Assembly: GCA_023260695.1 (NCBI GenBank)
Contig: JALQUR010000710.1
Span: forward strand, 1-45,719
From: Planctomycetaceae bacterium
Lineage (GTDB): Bacteria > Planctomycetota > Planctomycetia > Planctomycetales > Planctomycetaceae
Direction of reading: 5' to 3'
DNA: 45,719 nt
In this document: positions 35,381-43,972 of the stretch, in pieces
How the letters are laid out: every line of letters starts with the position of its first letter
Numbering within the stretch: the stretch's first letter is position 1
Position numbers and translations under genes: made by a program
The notes under the pieces: model-generated
Database searches by the model: none
The model's input: the letters and a program-made list of their open reading frames with translations, nothing else
Told to the model about the DNA's origin: nothing

Positions 35381-36838
35381 TCAGGCCGCCCGGTTTTCGG
35401 GAGCAGTCATCTCGGTGTCGCCGCCGCACCCTGCCGTACGAAGTTCAGACCTCATCCGCAGGACCGCTATTCCTCGTTGAATACTGTCCAGCGCAGGCAG
35501 CAACACCATCCCTCGGCGCCTTGCAATCAGACTGAAAATGGCCACATTCCAGAGACCCCGCCCGATGAGATATGCGGCGGCGGCGCCGAGCAAAGACCAC
35601 TCCACACTGCACCAGTACATCAGTCCCAGCTGGATTGGTGTATGCAGCAGGAGCAGTCGTCCATAGTCGCGTTCCAGCCCCATCGTCTGCATCACCGGCA
35701 CGGTCGGCCCAGTCAGACAATCGAGCAGGACCGCCGCCAGCAGCCACGGCAGCAACGCCGTGACAGGCGCATAATCAGGGCCAATAAACACGAGCAGAAC
35801 GGGCCAGCACAGCCAGATCAGCGTCGCGAAAAACGCACCGGCAAAAAAAATAATCGCTGCAGAATCCCGTGCCAGTCGGTCCGCATCCTGCAGCAGCCTG
35901 TTCTGCCACAGTCTCGCAAAGCGCGGCACCAGAGCAATATTCAGAACACCCAGCGGAAGCGTTGCCGCACCAGCCACCATCATGCCATAGGAAAATGCCG
36001 CAACCGCAGCAAAATCCGTCCCGGCAGCTACAACCAGAGGCATGCTTCGCTGACAGAGTATTCCGCCAATTGCCACCAGCAGAAACGGAAGCCCCCCTGC
36101 TGCGTATTGACGCAGCTCCGCCGGCCGTAATTCGGAAACCACCTGTCGCAGCAGCCCCCCATACACAGCCTGCAGGTGCCGCGAGCGAGTTGTGGCCAGC
36201 CACAGACAGACCATCAGCCCAGCATGCAGCAGAGCCATCTCCACCGCTCCGGCAGCTCCTCCACCAGCACGGATTGCCAGCAGCCCCGTCACCAGCCCCA
36301 GCGGAATCAGAATCTGCTCAGGTACAAGTGCCTGAAACGAACCCACCAGCGGCAGGGCCACCCACTGTCGCAGCCACAACAGTCCGAGCGGGGGAAACAA
36401 CAAACCGGAAAGCAGCACAGTCTTCTGCCATTCCGGAAATCCCAGCCGTCCCAGCACCAGACCAGAGGGAATCACCAGAGCGAGCAGAGCAAGCATTGCC
36501 AGCAGGAGGCAGCGATGCGTAATAATCACCTCATGACGCTGTTGCTGCACATCGTCCCGCACGGACAGATTTCGGACCAGCACACGATCCGTCCCAAGTG
36601 GTGCCAGCGCGGCCAGCAGCATCGCCAGCCCCAGTGCCGAATGATATTCCCCGAACTGCAGGTCCCCCAGAACCCGAGCAGTGATGGTCGTGGAACCATA
36701 CACGAACAGGATCCCTGCCGCGCGCATGATCGTCGTCTTCAGTGCATCACGATTCGCAGCAGCACCAGATACAGCAGAAGCACCGCTTGCTGACGGTCGC
36801 TGACCGCCTGCCCCCGACGGCCCCCCGCCAATACTCAT
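35381..36838 (-). CDS. Polysaccharide/lipid flippase, Wzx/MATE-like
   Basis: A membrane protein of 485 residues with about twelve to fourteen hydrophobic helices and no large soluble domain, of the type that flips polyprenyl-linked glycans across the inner membrane. The N-terminal ITARVLGDLQFGEYHSALGLAMLLAALAPLGTDRVLVRNLS block, with Gly-Tyr-like motif in helix one-two, is characteristic of Wzx/MurJ-like oligosaccharide flippases. About 35 Gly/Ser/Ala-rich residues precede the first helix. Its ATG (36838) overlaps the stop of the CapD-type dehydratase by ATGA, so sugar-nucleotide modification and flipping are co-translated. Confidence 0.85.
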   Translation of the reverse strand: MSIGGGPSGAGGQRPSASGASAVSGAAANRDALKTTIMRAAGILFVYGSTTITARVLGDLQFGEYHSALGLAMLLAALAPLGTDRVLVRNLSVRDDVQQQRHEVIITHRCLLLAMLALLALVIPSGLVLGRLGFPEWQKTVLLSGLLFPPLGLLWLRQWVALPLVGSFQALVPEQILIPLGLVTGLLAIRAGGGAAGAVEMALLHAGLMVCLWLATTRSRHLQAVYGGLLRQVVSELRPAELRQYAAGGLPFLLVAIGGILCQRSMPLVVAAGTDFAAVAAFSYGMMVAGAATLPLGVLNIALVPRFARLWQNRLLQDADRLARDSAAIIFFAGAFFATLIWLCWPVLLVFIGPDYAPVTALLPWLLAAVLLDCLTGPTVPVMQTMGLERDYGRLLLLHTPIQLGLMYWCSVEWSLLGAAAAYLIGRGLWNVAIFSLIARRRGMVLLPALDSIQRGIAVLRMRSELRTAGCGGDTEMTAPENRAA

Positions 36839-37959
36839 GCTGCACACCTTTCCTCCGAGTCTTCCTGCGGGCGGGCAATTGGAATCACTGCCGGCACTGA
36901 TGCCCAGGGTGACAGCAGCTCGTGCTGCACACAGTACCGGGACAGGTCGTCCTGACTCATCGCATTTTCAGGACTGCTGACATAGGCCTCATACAGCTGA
37001 TGGCTGACGATGTCGTCATATTCATAGCTGATTTCTTCATACACACTGCGAAACGCCGGCAACACAGCAAACATCTCCTTCAGTTCGATGGTGCGTCGCG
37101 TCTCCTCTTCGCTCATCAGCTCTTCGTACAGCTTTTCACCGGGCTTGGCGCCAATCTCGCTCGTTGCAATCTGGTCCGGCGAAAACCCATACTGACCACT
37201 CAATGCCTGAATCATCACTTCCGCCAGATCAGCGATCTGAATCACCGGCATCTTCGTTACGAAAACTTCACCGCCCCGAGCTTTTTCGGCCGCTGAAAGC
37301 ACCAGCCGACAACTCTCCTGCAGCGTCATGATAAAGCGAGTCATCCGGCGATCTGTCAGAGTGACAGGACCACCCTGCTCAATCTGCCTCGCGAAGATCG
37401 GAATCACCGACCCTCGTGACCCCAGCACGTTGCCAAACCGCGTTGAGCTGAAGATTGTACGGCCCTGCAGACGCAGACTGTTTGCCGCCGTGATCAGTCG
37501 CTCACCCATCAGTTTGGATGTACCCATCACGTTGGTCGGATTCACAGCCTTGTCGGAACTGGTAAAGATCACTCGCTCCACATCGTTATTAAGCGCCGCT
37601 TCAATCACATTGCGGACGCCCAGAATGTTCGTCTGCACGGCGTCAAACGGAGCTCGTTCACACAGAATCACGTGCTTCAGTGCAGCAGTGTGCAGCACAA
37701 TATCCACACCGGCAAACATGCGATTCAGCTTGTCGGCATCCCGTACGTCTCCCAGCTGACAAAGACTGTTCACCTGACACTGCGGATTCAGACGACTGTG
37801 CTGCAGTAGTTCCTGCTCCAGAAAAAACACTTCCGATTCATTTGTATCAACAACACGAATCTCTCGAGGCTGCAGGTCCAGCAACTGGCGAACCAGTTCC
37901 CGCCCGACAGTTCCGCAGCCACCCGTTACCAGTACCGTCTTCCCGGAAAAGAAACTCAT
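36835..37959 (-). CDS. UDP-sugar 4,6-dehydratase, CapD/PseB-type
   Basis: A 374-residue extended short-chain dehydrogenase. The NAD loop is VLVTGGCGTVGRELVRQLL, LHTAALKHVILCE and TNILGVRNVIEAAL follow, and the active site reads FTSSDKAVNPTNVMGTSKLMGE, where the CapD/PseB type replaces the usual Tyr motif with Ser-Asp-Lys / Met..Lys. RFGNVLGSRGSVIPIFARQI and EELMSEEETRRT are further family blocks. It should make a 4-keto-6-deoxy sugar nucleotide from a UDP-HexNAc. ATG 37959 (MSFFSG) is preferred over an earlier start because the Rossmann strand begins directly after it. It overlaps the flippase gene. Confidence 0.9.
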   Translation of the reverse strand: MSFFSGKTVLVTGGCGTVGRELVRQLLDLQPREIRVVDTNESEVFFLEQELLQHSRLNPQCQVNSLCQLGDVRDADKLNRMFAGVDIVLHTAALKHVILCERAPFDAVQTNILGVRNVIEAALNNDVERVIFTSSDKAVNPTNVMGTSKLMGERLITAANSLRLQGRTIFSSTRFGNVLGSRGSVIPIFARQIEQGGPVTLTDRRMTRFIMTLQESCRLVLSAAEKARGGEVFVTKMPVIQIADLAEVMIQALSGQYGFSPDQIATSEIGAKPGEKLYEELMSEEETRRTIELKEMFAVLPAFRSVYEEISYEYDDIVSHQLYEAYVSSPENAMSQDDLSRYCVQHELLSPWASVPAVIPIARPQEDSEERCAA

Positions 37960-38057
37960 ACTGCACCCTGTCCTGAATTGATGAATCAACAGCAGTCGAA
38001 ATCACCCACCGAATTTTCGAATTCTGTCCCCTGCCAGATCACAGCCAGACCACTGAA

Positions 38058-38990
38058 TCAGGCCGCTCGCTGCCGATACAACGATGGATCAATGACGTTG
38101 ACCATCGCCTCACAGTCGAGTTCCCCGCCCAGATGCCGATTGATCTGTCGAACAACCTGCTGCGGATCTGCAATCAGTTCGTTGTAACTGACATTCACCG
38201 CCTGCAGGTGTTCCTGCTGCGGCAGCCATGAATAAAAACTCAGCAGCTCGCGACGATACATTTCCTGCATCTGCTCATCTGCAATCTCTGTCACCACGCC
38301 ACTACGCTCCAGCATCGCTCGCTGTGATCGCAGAATCTCATCCACATCACGACGCATCAGCACAACCCGGTACTTCCGATCAGCAGGCAGATGCCGCAGC
38401 AGTCGAAATACCATCTTCACCGACGAACCAGCAGCTGTCTCAGTCCAGGCCGCGTCATGATCCGTCTGTTTGACGGCTTCCAGCTCGTAATATCCATTCG
38501 GATTGTCTGCATCAGCACGCCGCACGCTGTCTGTCAGCGCCGGAATCCCCCCGGCCTCCAGCATCCGCATCATCAGTGATGTCCCTGAACGGGGCAGCCC
38601 CGACACAACCGTAATCCAGTCCCGTCCGCAATCCACCGCAGTACTGCTCCGAGGATCACTCGCTGCAGCCCGCATCGCTGCCTCACCTGCCTCCAGCAGC
38701 TGCAGCAACTGTCCCTCCGTCAGCGCACCCGTCTTCTGAGCCACGAGCTGGCCATTTGCCCATACGGCAAATGTGGGAACTCCACTGATCTTGTACTCGG
38801 CAGCCAGATCCGGCTGACGATCAATGTTCACCGAGCAGATGTCGACGCGGTCGCTCACCTTCGCAGCCAGACGCTCCAGCACCGGCTGCATCATGCGACA
38901 GGGCGGACACCACGTCGCCCAGAAATCCACCAGCACCGGGCGAGTGTTCTCAAGGACACGTTCGCGGAATTCCCCGCTTTGAAGTTCCAT
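38058..38990 (-). CDS. Thioredoxin-sulfotransferase fusion protein
   Basis: One uninterrupted frame of 310 residues encodes two domains. Residues 1-105 are a complete thioredoxin: FWATWCPPCRMM with Cys28 and Cys31 (Pro-Pro between them, not the usual Gly-Pro), and the cis-Pro in SGVPTF at 70-74. Residues 125-310 are a PAPS-dependent sulfotransferase: P-loop VVSGLPRSGTSLMM at 128-141 for the 5'-phosphosulfate and YRVVLMRRDVDEILRSQ for the 3'-phosphate, plus NPNGYYELE typical of this bacterial subfamily. No signal peptide is present, so it acts in the cytoplasm. It stands between an SQD1-like epimerase and a CapD-type dehydratase, which points to sulfation of a glycan or glycolipid precursor. 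The fusion is unusual. Confidence 0.88.
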   Translation of the reverse strand: MELQSGEFRERVLENTRPVLVDFWATWCPPCRMMQPVLERLAAKVSDRVDICSVNIDRQPDLAAEYKISGVPTFAVWANGQLVAQKTGALTEGQLLQLLEAGEAAMRAAASDPRSSTAVDCGRDWITVVSGLPRSGTSLMMRMLEAGGIPALTDSVRRADADNPNGYYELEAVKQTDHDAAWTETAAGSSVKMVFRLLRHLPADRKYRVVLMRRDVDEILRSQRAMLERSGVVTEIADEQMQEMYRRELLSFYSWLPQQEHLQAVNVSYNELIADPQQVVRQINRHLGGELDCEAMVNVIDPSLYRQRAA

Positions 38991-39047: not shown

Positions 39048-40526
39048 TCAGGCTGCCGGCTTCCATGTTTCCAGAACTTCCAGTTCACCGTGCTCGCCGG
39101 ACCACTTCGTTCTGGGAAATAACGTGTCCTGCTGCTTCAGAATTCGTGCTTTCACTTCCGGCTGCAGCAGTACTCGAAACAGATGCCGTACCTCGTCAGC
39201 AAATGCCGATTCCGATTCAAAGCCAAATCGATCCGCCAGCTTCTCGTGAATCACCTCGTAGGGATGTTCCTCTGATTCCACGCGTGGATTCTCAATTCGC
39301 TGCACTTCCACTTCCAGGTCGAATTCGCGTGCAATCGTTGCCACCATCTGAGCAATCTCGCGGACGCTGAAAACATCCGTCACCTGATTGACAACGTCGT
39401 ACTGACCCGGTTCCGGCGGTGCTGCAATCAATCGCGTAATGCACTGCATCGCATCTCGCAGAGTGATGTAACCACGCTTCTGCGAACCACTGCCATAAAT
39501 CGTCAGCGGCATGCCAATCACTGCCTGAGCAACAAAACGGTTGACCACCGTGCCCCACCATTCATCAATGTCGAAGCGAGTATTCAGCGCCGGATCCAGA
39601 TCCAGCTCGGCCGAACTGCTGCCATATATCACTCCCTGCATCACGTCATAGCTTCGCAACCACCAGTACTTGCAGGCTTCATAGACACTGAACGTCCCCT
39701 GCACCTTGCTGACATGATAAAAGCTCACCGGATCCCGCGGCGTAAGTTCCCCGCCCAGACTCCATTCCTGACCCTGATACTGCAGCACTGCATCGCCCGG
39801 AAACAGCCCCTCGAACAACGGCCGACCCGTCAACGGACTGCCATATTCACCCATCGTTCCGAGCTTGATGATGGACGCATCCGGAGCGTGGTCACGCACT
39901 GCAAACAACAGTCCCAGCGTACCCACAACATTGTTCTCCACCGTCTTCACGGCACGCTCCACATCCGCCATGCTGTAGGGTGCACTCGGTATCTCGGCAA
40001 ACTGCACGATCGATTCCGGCTGGAATTCCTCCAGCAACGCCGCCAACGCCGGGCGATCCATCAGGTCCATTTCACGAAACTCAATCTCCACGCCCAGCTT
40101 CTCGCGAGCTGCTGCGACTCGCTCCTCCATGCTGCCAATCGGAGTAATCGAATCAGCTCCACGTTCGGCGACCAGCTCACGCCGCATCAGATTGTCAATC
40201 CCAAGCACGCGACAACCCTGCTTTGCCAGCTTGAGCGCCATCGGCCAGCCCAGATAACCATCCATCCCCAGAATGAGCACTCGCATGTCCCTGAGCAGAT
40301 AGCCGTCGGGCGTCTCCTGCCACTCGCTGCAGCTCTCAAACGTAATTGAATTGGGATCGAAATACCCAATCTCCGGACGACGCCGACACTCCACCACCAG
40401 CTGCCCCTGAGCCGCCTTGCGAAATGCAGCCTGACCACAGGCTCGAAAATCCACATGACCCTTGAATTCCACTGCCGGACAACTCCAGCATGTCTGGCCA
40501 GCGTTATGGCATCCTGATTCCGTCAT
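39048..40526 (-). CDS. SQD1-like NAD-dependent epimerase with Cys-rich N-terminal extension
   Basis: Residues 81-492 form an extended SDR related to UDP-sulfoquinovose synthase (SQD1): MRVLILGMDGYLGWPMALKLAKQG, QFAEIPSAPYSM, LGTMGEYGSP, FYHVSKVQGTFSVYEACK (catalytic Tyr-Lys) and IYGSGSQKRGYITLRDAMQCI are all close to SQD1 blocks. SQD1 adds sulfite to a 4-keto UDP-glucose intermediate; whether this enzyme does so is not known. Residues 1-80 are an extra region with six cysteines (CHNAGQTCWSC, FRACG, VVEC, SCSEW) and an RPEIGYFDPNSITFE stretch that does not resemble the SDR family. It is in frame without a stop; a start at ATG 40286 would remove it. Cluster neighbours are a sulfotransferase fusion and a phosphatase-superfamily enzyme. 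Confidence 0.82.
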   Translation of the reverse strand: MTESGCHNAGQTCWSCPAVEFKGHVDFRACGQAAFRKAAQGQLVVECRRRPEIGYFDPNSITFESCSEWQETPDGYLLRDMRVLILGMDGYLGWPMALKLAKQGCRVLGIDNLMRRELVAERGADSITPIGSMEERVAAAREKLGVEIEFREMDLMDRPALAALLEEFQPESIVQFAEIPSAPYSMADVERAVKTVENNVVGTLGLLFAVRDHAPDASIIKLGTMGEYGSPLTGRPLFEGLFPGDAVLQYQGQEWSLGGELTPRDPVSFYHVSKVQGTFSVYEACKYWWLRSYDVMQGVIYGSSSAELDLDPALNTRFDIDEWWGTVVNRFVAQAVIGMPLTIYGSGSQKRGYITLRDAMQCITRLIAAPPEPGQYDVVNQVTDVFSVREIAQMVATIAREFDLEVEVQRIENPRVESEEHPYEVIHEKLADRFGFESESAFADEVRHLFRVLLQPEVKARILKQQDTLFPRTKWSGEHGELEVLETWKPAA

Positions 40527-41985: not shown

Positions 41986-42396
41986 TCACAGATAACCCAG
42001 CTGCCGCAGTCGCTCCGAAACCGCCTCGGCGTCTTCCTCATCCATGAATGCACTCGCATCGCACGCCTCCGACACACGCACCAGCAGAAAGGAAATCTGT
42101 GCGGCAGTCAGCGCCGCCCGGGCCGCAACGGCCTGGGAACAGTCTGAGTCGCATACCAGTACCACGCGACTGTATTGGTGCTCCCCGAGCACATCCCTGA
42201 CGGCAACTGCGTACGAATCCTGCCAGAGCACTCGGGCAGGCTGTAATGTCACGCTCAGTTCCCCGTCAACCGCGGCAAAATAGGGAACGCCCGGCAGCGT
42301 GTTCAGAACCTGGGAGGAAAGATTCAGGATCACATCCCCCGCCAGCAGCAATTCAGAAATTGCCAGCGGATTTGCAGTACATTCAGTACTCATCAC
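41986..42396 (-). CDS. Unknown protein with a Toprim-like C-terminal half
   Basis: A 136-residue soluble protein that I do not recognise. The N-terminal half is mostly hydrophobic strands (DVILNLSSQVLNTLPGVPYFAAVDGELSVTL). The C-terminal half reads SRVVLVCDSDCSQAVAARAALTAAQISFLLVRV followed by CDASAFMDEEDAEAVSERL, a pattern reminiscent of a Toprim or small Rossmann fold (strand, Asp-x-Asp, helix, strand, acidic run). It lacks enough detail for a function. It is the first gene of the minus-strand cluster that continues with the phosphatase-superfamily enzyme. The start may be the second Met (42393). Confidence 0.65.
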   Translation of the reverse strand: MMSTECTANPLAISELLLAGDVILNLSSQVLNTLPGVPYFAAVDGELSVTLQPARVLWQDSYAVAVRDVLGEHQYSRVVLVCDSDCSQAVAARAALTAAQISFLLVRVSEACDASAFMDEEDAEAVSERLRQLGYL

Positions 42397-42712: not shown

Positions 42713-43972
42713 ATGCCGACGGAATTTGCTTCTCTCAGGCAGCGCACCGGTCTGTCGCTGCAGGAACTCGCTACCCCCCTCGGGATCTCACCGCGGACGC
42801 TGCGGCGGTACGAATCGGGCGACAGTACTCCCCGACCACCGGTACTGGAACTGCTGCGAACTCTGGCACGGACTGCTCCAGTTCGACCAGGGCGACATAC
42901 CTTCCGCATGATTGATCTGTTCGCAGGCATCGGAGGACTGCGGAGGGGGTTCGAAAGTATTGGCGGGCACTGTGTCTTCACCAGCGAATGGAACAAGATG
43001 GCTCAGCGCACCTACGCAGCCAACTTCCAGGACAAGGACGACCATCAGTTTGCCGGCGACATTACTTCCGTCGACGTCGCAGATATTCCGGCATTCGATG
43101 TGCTGCTGGCAGGGTTTCCCTGCCAGCCGTTTTCGATCGCTGGTGTCAGCAAGAAGAATTCACTCGGCCGCAGTCACGGTTTTAAATGCGAGGCCCAGGG
43201 AACCCTCTTCTTTGATGTGGCGCGAATCCTCGAACACCACCGGCCGGCGGCGTTCCTGCTGGAGAATGTGAAGAATCTGGTCAGCCACGATCGCGGCAAT
43301 ACATTTCGCGTCATTCATCGCACGCTCACGGAAGAACTTGGCTACACCAACCTGCACTGGAAGGTCATTGACGCAAAGTCCTTTGTTCCGCAGCACCGGG
43401 AACGCATCTTCATTGTCGGCTTTCGCGATCAGAACGATTTCAGTTTTGACGACATGCTGATCCCTGATGTCAAGGCCGGCCCGCGACTGCACACCATCCT
43501 GCACGCTGAAGACGGTTCAGAACAACCGGAGGGACACTTCACCGCAGGCCCCCTGGCCGCGGTCAGCGAGCGTTACACATTGTCCGACAAACTCTGGAAA
43601 TACCTGCAGGACTATGCAGAGAAGCACCGTCGCAGGGGAAACGGCTTTGGTTTCGGACTGGTGAACGGGGACGACGTCGCTCGCACACTGTCCGCACGCT
43701 ATCACAAGGACGGCTCTGAAATCCTGATTCAGCGACCGCAGGGAAATCCACGACGACTGACGCCGCGAGAATGTGCCCGCCTGATGGGATTTGACCGACC
43801 GGGGCAACCACCATTTCGCATCCCCGTTTCCGACACTCAGGCCTACCGACAGTTCGGCAACGCAGTTGTGGTGGACGTTGTGGAAGCAGTCGCTCGGCAA
43901 ATGCAACCGTGGCTCCCCGTCAATGACCAGTCCAGCCTGCAGCGGGAACTGCAGTTTCGTGGAGTACTCTGA
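42713..43972 (+). CDS. dcm: Dcm-type DNA cytosine-5 methyltransferase with N-terminal HTH
   Basis: A 419-residue C5 methyltransferase. Residues 5-45 are an XRE-type HTH ([27 protein letters not shown]). The catalytic domain has motif [16 protein letters not shown], motif IV GFPCQPF with Cys137, motif VI ENV at 184-186, motif VIII QHRER at 227-231, and FGNAVVV at the end. The recognition region reads [12 protein letters not shown] and [16 protein letters not shown], very like E. coli Dcm and M.EcoRII, so CCWGG is the predicted target. No restriction enzyme or vsr gene adjoins it, so it looks solitary. The HTH and the upstream palindrome suggest autoregulation. Confidence 0.93.

Follow-up and report, generated by a model that had tools for sequence, protein, structure and literature searches.

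In a Planctomycetaceae bacterium, a canonical thioredoxin (Trx) is joined in a single frame to a small PAPS-type sulfotransferase (ST). Our main result is that this Trx appears, from gene order in three phyla, to track the cysteine-rich N-terminal extension of a neighbouring UDP-sulfoquinovose synthase-like (SQD1-like) enzyme and not the ST, because a Trx adjoins every Cys-rich SQD1-like gene seen, including those of Latescibacterota G503 and Chloroflexota G1020, and none was found beside 24 SQD1-like loci without the extension (flanks mostly 1.5 kb, four of 13-18 kb).

Gene block and probable partner of the thioredoxin

The window, by which we mean the whole stretch of 45,719 nucleotides analysed (contig JALQUR010000710.1, assembly GCA_023260695.1), carries the fusion gene in a block of minus-strand genes, the order of which is a 136-aa protein, a phosphodiesterase, the SQD1-like enzyme, Trx and ST (fused or separate), a PseB-like dehydratase and a flippase. 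The 136-aa protein at the head of the block (41986..42396) has no Pfam or NCBIfam match and is conserved in the block loci, and the alkaline-phosphatase-superfamily phosphodiesterase (Pfam PF01663; 40641..41945) is found in each block whose sequence extends far enough. In the block loci, Trx-ST is followed immediately downstream by a PseB/CapD-like UDP-GlcNAc 4,6-dehydratase (PF02719, E 7e-102; 36835..37989), after which many blocks carry the Wzx-like flippase (PF01943, E 3e-9; 35381..36847). This gene content points to a surface-glycan pathway. Neighbouring PseB and SQD1 genes without Trx or ST were also found in other planctomycetes and in Pseudomonadota (several genomes, L167-L173).

In the block of G358, the PseB-like gene is followed immediately downstream by a second sulfotransferase (L145:3788-4714), and this by an O-antigen-ligase-like (Wzy-like ligase) protein and then a flippase. 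Adjoining the block in the window, positions 42713-43972 (+) read as a gene for a DNA cytosine methyltransferase whose N-terminal region is of the helix-turn-helix type; a homologue of this protein also flanks the block in L064. The window further contains a PRK06203-type 3-dehydroquinate synthase-like protein (113-1024, +; above cut-off) and an MfnB-like (5-formylfuran-3-yl)methyl phosphate synthase (1975-2700, +; below cut-off).

In all 40 block records, which represent about 27 distinct assemblies as several records repeat one genome, and many loci of which come from metagenome-assembled genomes (MAGs), the Trx lies directly downstream of the Cys-rich SQD1-like gene on the same strand, at 20-363 bp; in G358, the stop codon of the SQD1-like gene overlaps the start codon of Trx. 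The Chloroflexota genome G1020 has the order phosphodiesterase, Cys-rich SQD1-like enzyme and WCPPC-type Trx, with Trx 6 bp behind the SQD1-like gene, and nothing in the whole genome matched the ST at E <= 1e-5. In Latescibacterota G503 the Trx again stands beside the SQD1-like gene, and the ST is found upstream, past the phosphodiesterase and an epimerase. These arrangements suggest that the SQD1-like enzyme is the older partner of Trx and that the ST joined later. The link to the SQD1-like neighbour that the initial annotation had drawn is strongly supported, and this neighbour is probably the real context of the Trx.

The SQD1-like enzyme and its cysteine-rich extension

The neighbour is a protein of 492 aa (39048..40526, minus strand), which aligns over residues 79-477 with SQD1 structures (E 1e-143). 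Its score of 424 bits against the UDP-sulfoquinovose synthase equivalog NF041015 is under the cut-off of 575, and we therefore call it SQD1-like only. Like SQD1/SqdB it retains Thr224, Tyr270, His271, and Lys274, which are at least 90% conserved when aligned together with SQD1-like proteins devoid of the extension. Besides the sub-cut-off NCBIfam score, it differs from SQD1/SqdB by an N-terminal Cys-rich extension of about 80 aa (40287..40526, minus strand), by inserts near the active site and by the adjacent Trx. Alignments place the cysteines of the extension at positions 13, 16, 30, 47, and 66, and all five are invariant across three phyla. Between Planctomycetota and Latescibacterota the 80-residue extension hardly differs, and it can still be recognised in Chloroflexota G1020, where all five cysteines are present. 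Searches with it returned no Pfam match at E <= 1 and no PDB sequence match at E <= 10, and AlphaFold2 modelled it at a pLDDT of 37-61, at which the model is unreliable for fold or cysteine pairing. SQD1-like hits on plasmids of Rhizobiaceae and haloarchaea added nothing on the extension.

Domain architecture of the fusion protein

The fusion gene is one ATG-initiated open reading frame of 310 aa without internal stop (38058-38990, minus strand). Its Trx domain (residues 1-100; 38691..38990, minus strand) was assigned from PF00085 (residues 3-100, E 1.9e-28, 98.9 bits against a cut-off of 23.5), TIGR01068 (101 bits for the 310-aa protein, above the cut-off of 96.8), conserved residues and PDB thioredoxins. 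A linker (residues 101-124; 38619..38690, minus strand) leads to the ST domain (residues 125-310; 38061..38618, minus strand), which is recognised by Sulfotransfer_3 (PF13469, E 1.2e-12, 49 bits against a gathering cut-off of 27) and by Sulfotransfer_1 (PF00685, residues 128-301, 25.9 bits against a cut-off of 22), as well as by its P-loop, Arg214, and Ser222. The motifs lie at residues 27-31 (WCPPC), 72 (cis-Pro) and 131-138 (P-loop GLPRSGTS), while PF01507 (PAPS_reduct) is absent from the 310-aa protein in Pfam. AlphaFold2 predicted two confident domains with a weak linker (mean pLDDT 92, pTM 0.65, low pLDDT at residues 116-121), and the protein is probably cytosolic. The top Foldseek match, spanning both domains, is the engineered Trx-3-OST5 crystallisation construct 7scd, where Trx likewise precedes a sulfotransferase, but as an artificial tag and not as part of a natural gene. 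VIA-align with Trx-ST listed only thioredoxins (PDB thioredoxins at Z ~19), and for this reason a sequence profile was used for the fold comparison of the ST. Taken together with the recurrence of the fusion described below, Pfam, NCBIfam, and AlphaFold2 confirm the initial description of a full thioredoxin and a PAPS-type sulfotransferase in one frame.

Disulfide reductase activity of the Trx domain is predicted from profile and motif. WCPPC is invariant in 27/27 aligned Trx of this locus type, and Asp22, Trp27, Cys28, Pro29, Pro30, Cys31, and Pro72, among them the buried Asp and the cis-Pro, are kept in at least 26 of the 27. The WCPPC site had been regarded as atypical; this is true in so far as two other thioredoxins of the same genome have WCGPC, but the motif is the rule at this locus, occurs in thioredoxin L036 as well and is known in other thioredoxins, such as some plant Trx h.

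Fused and split forms among relatives

About 18 independent assemblies, comprising most congeners and a second genus, carry the same fusion at this locus. Within the genus (g1), Trx-ST is matched there over its full length in 10 of the 17 congeners, and in 3 others a single open frame holds the two domains; in the remaining ones it is split across contig ends or the match is absent. Genus g304 also has the fusion, and the genome contigs L051 and L052 (~50% identity) are likewise fused. In the Fuerstiella-like relatives of genus g45 (L049, L053, L071, L072, L077, and G358), Trx and ST are encoded next to each other by separate genes, each with its own start and stop codon, and the same holds for a Pirellulaceae MAG (L070) and for one from Latescibacterota (L075). 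For the initial annotation, separate genes in the closest relatives or a stop codon lost between the domains would have spoken against its reading, and the first of these applies in part: the closest relatives (g1 and g304) are fused, and it is the next closest that encode two adjacent genes. A lost stop codon or an assembly artefact is ruled out, because assemblies made independently show the fusion in the same position. Since these next relatives keep Trx and ST as separate neighbours, the fusion most likely arose by the joining of operon neighbours. A tree of the two domains preferred two changes of state but did not reject a single fused clade (p-AU 0.29; long branches). The fusion is found in two genera and possibly in a third, uncertain lineage.

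The sulfotransferase domain

The ST profile aligns with human SULT structures across the P-loop and the R...S motif. The 5'-phosphosulfate P-loop PRSGTS (residues 133-138) is nearly invariant among 91 ST sequences, and Arg214 and Ser222, the 3'-phosphate R...S motif with a spacing of 8, are kept in 91/91. The domain shares this PAPS-site pattern with the cytosolic SULTs (Sulfotransfer_1/3) but has only ~190 aa and no clear counterpart of their catalytic His: in a weak alignment with SULT1C3, Lys192 stands opposite a Lys, and Val/Ile occupies the expected position of the catalytic His (His108 of estrogen sulfotransferase). The conserved Glu169 and Glu171 are candidate alternatives to this His.

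No cysteine column is conserved among 25 block and 66 stand-alone ST domains, which makes a dithiol switch on the ST unlikely. Redox control through the ST's own cysteines was rejected on this evidence, and the earlier ideas of a redox-gated sulfotransfer or of disulfide recycling on the ST found no support, the Trx also being present without any ST of the family in one Chloroflexota genome.

Stand-alone relatives of ~200 aa are spread over many phyla, about one third of them lying no more than 6 kb from a PF01663-type phosphodiesterase gene, and a Trx match was seen near only one of the stand-alone loci (L091), on the opposite strand and 4.5 kb off. The family also occurs fused to phosphodiesterases. 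The phosphodiesterase is a recurrent partner of the ST, as the genome of the bacterium itself encodes on contig C177 a 941-aa protein that unites a PF01663 phosphodiesterase, TPR repeats and a paralogous ST (L149:4565-7390), which suggests that the two activities act together. Frames of this kind with 957-991 aa were observed in the congeners G002, G003, G009, and G010.

Proposed role and alternative explanations

With a probability of no more than about 0.5, and judging from conservation and gene order, we propose that the Cys-rich SQD1-like enzyme of a sulfoglycan cluster has a dedicated Trx, to which the ST was fused later. The WCPPC pair would reduce the conserved cysteines of the N-terminal extension, and this may either keep them in the reduced state or free sulfite or another sulfur nucleophile near the SQD1 active site, whereupon the SQD1-like enzyme would produce a UDP-sulfosugar. 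Independently, the ST domain would move sulfate from PAPS onto an acceptor, a sugar or a lipid, that belongs to the same pathway, and fusion of the neighbours would fix the ratio and the location of Trx and ST. Sulfite and PAPS could be supplied by the CysH and APS kinase of the bacterium. The fusion, the domain identities and the gene order are observed, whereas we infer that Trx and the SQD1-like enzyme form a redox pair, by what chemistry they do so, and what the ST sulfates. Against the redox pair it can be said that the five-Cys extension might just bind zinc or an iron-sulfur cluster and need no thioredoxin, and the Trx could serve CysH or another protein of the cluster, such as the phosphodiesterase, which keeps two cysteines in 19/21 sequences. 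We also consider it possible, though rather unlikely, that the block encodes a sulfur delivery device, in which the WCPPC Trx and the five-Cys domain would carry and release sulfite or persulfide and the fused PAPS-binding domain would couple activated sulfate to it.

Several other readings deserve to be weighed against a Trx dedicated to the SQD1-like enzyme. CysH, the PAPS/APS reductase, belongs to a thioredoxin-using family, and the Trx might reduce it, the fusion gathering PAPS, CysH, and the SQD1-like enzyme for a local supply of sulfite to the sulfosugar. CysH and APS kinase are encoded separately in the same genome, PAPS_reduct matches occur in 16 of the 18 genomes of the genus, and the covalent PAPS reductase-Trx complex 2o8v is among the fold matches of Trx-ST; however, CysH lies outside the cluster, other thioredoxins, of the WCGPC type, are present, and it would not be clear why Trx goes with the Cys-rich extension, so we think this reading improbable. 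Trx-ST as the sole PAPS reductase was rejected in view of these same CysH and PAPS_reduct findings, and because CysH and APS kinase are encoded separately the fusion is not needed in this capacity. Sulfur channelling from PAPS, as raised initially, may take place, although these separate enzymes exist. In a convergent counterpart of the plant enzyme discussed below, the sulfonate of ST-bound PAPS could be passed to a Trx cysteine and the second cysteine could free sulfite for the SQD1-like enzyme, the gene of which Trx-ST adjoins. That the PAPS-site residues are retained and that the classic SULT catalytic His is not seen in the weak alignment would fit such a PAPS-to-sulfite reaction; we nevertheless hold it to be very unlikely, given that in many phyla members of this ST family stand by themselves or are joined to phosphodiesterases, with neither Trx nor SQD1, that Trx and the SQD1-like enzyme exist without ST, and that a genuine CysH is present.

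The physical fusion in two genera and the possible third lineage could also mean that Trx regulates or stabilises the ST, as a redox gate or as a folding and solubility module. This is quite unlikely in the light of the missing ST cysteine, of a linker that varies from 13 to 107 aa among relatives, and of Trx genes that are split from ST in sister lineages or occur without it, and the invariant redox residues are not what would be expected of a pure solubility tag. Neighbouring genes in sister lineages and the weak, variable linker are what a neutral accident among operon neighbours would leave, with the two domains acting separately and Trx serving as a general reductant. The retention of Trx by Cys-rich SQD1-like genes in three phyla, and an invariant WCPPC that differs from the WCGPC of the other thioredoxins in the genome, argue against such an accident, which we judge unlikely.

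Relation to known systems and significance

We found no description of a Trx-ST fusion or of a Cys-rich SQD1-like form in the open-licence literature searched. The nearest parallel is the APS reductase (APR) of plants and algae, in which a reductase domain is fused to a C-terminal thioredoxin (PMC2275785). Trx-ST resembles APR in that a thioredoxin is fused to a domain handling activated sulfate and is tied to sulfite supply, whereas the catalytic domain of APR is PAPS_reduct and its Trx is C-terminal; here the domain has a sulfotransferase fold, Trx is N-terminal, and CysH is a separate gene.

If the sulfur delivery device were real, it would be new for sulfosugar synthesis, and the five-cysteine N-terminal domain would be a previously undescribed one. 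To our knowledge, the sulfite source of bacterial SQD1-type enzymes is poorly understood. A Trx beside every Cys-rich SQD1-like gene seen, in three phyla, offers a concrete and testable candidate for the sulfite supply of SQD1, and the block pairs predicted sulfonation by the SQD1-like enzyme with predicted sulfation by the ST within one bacterial glycan cluster.
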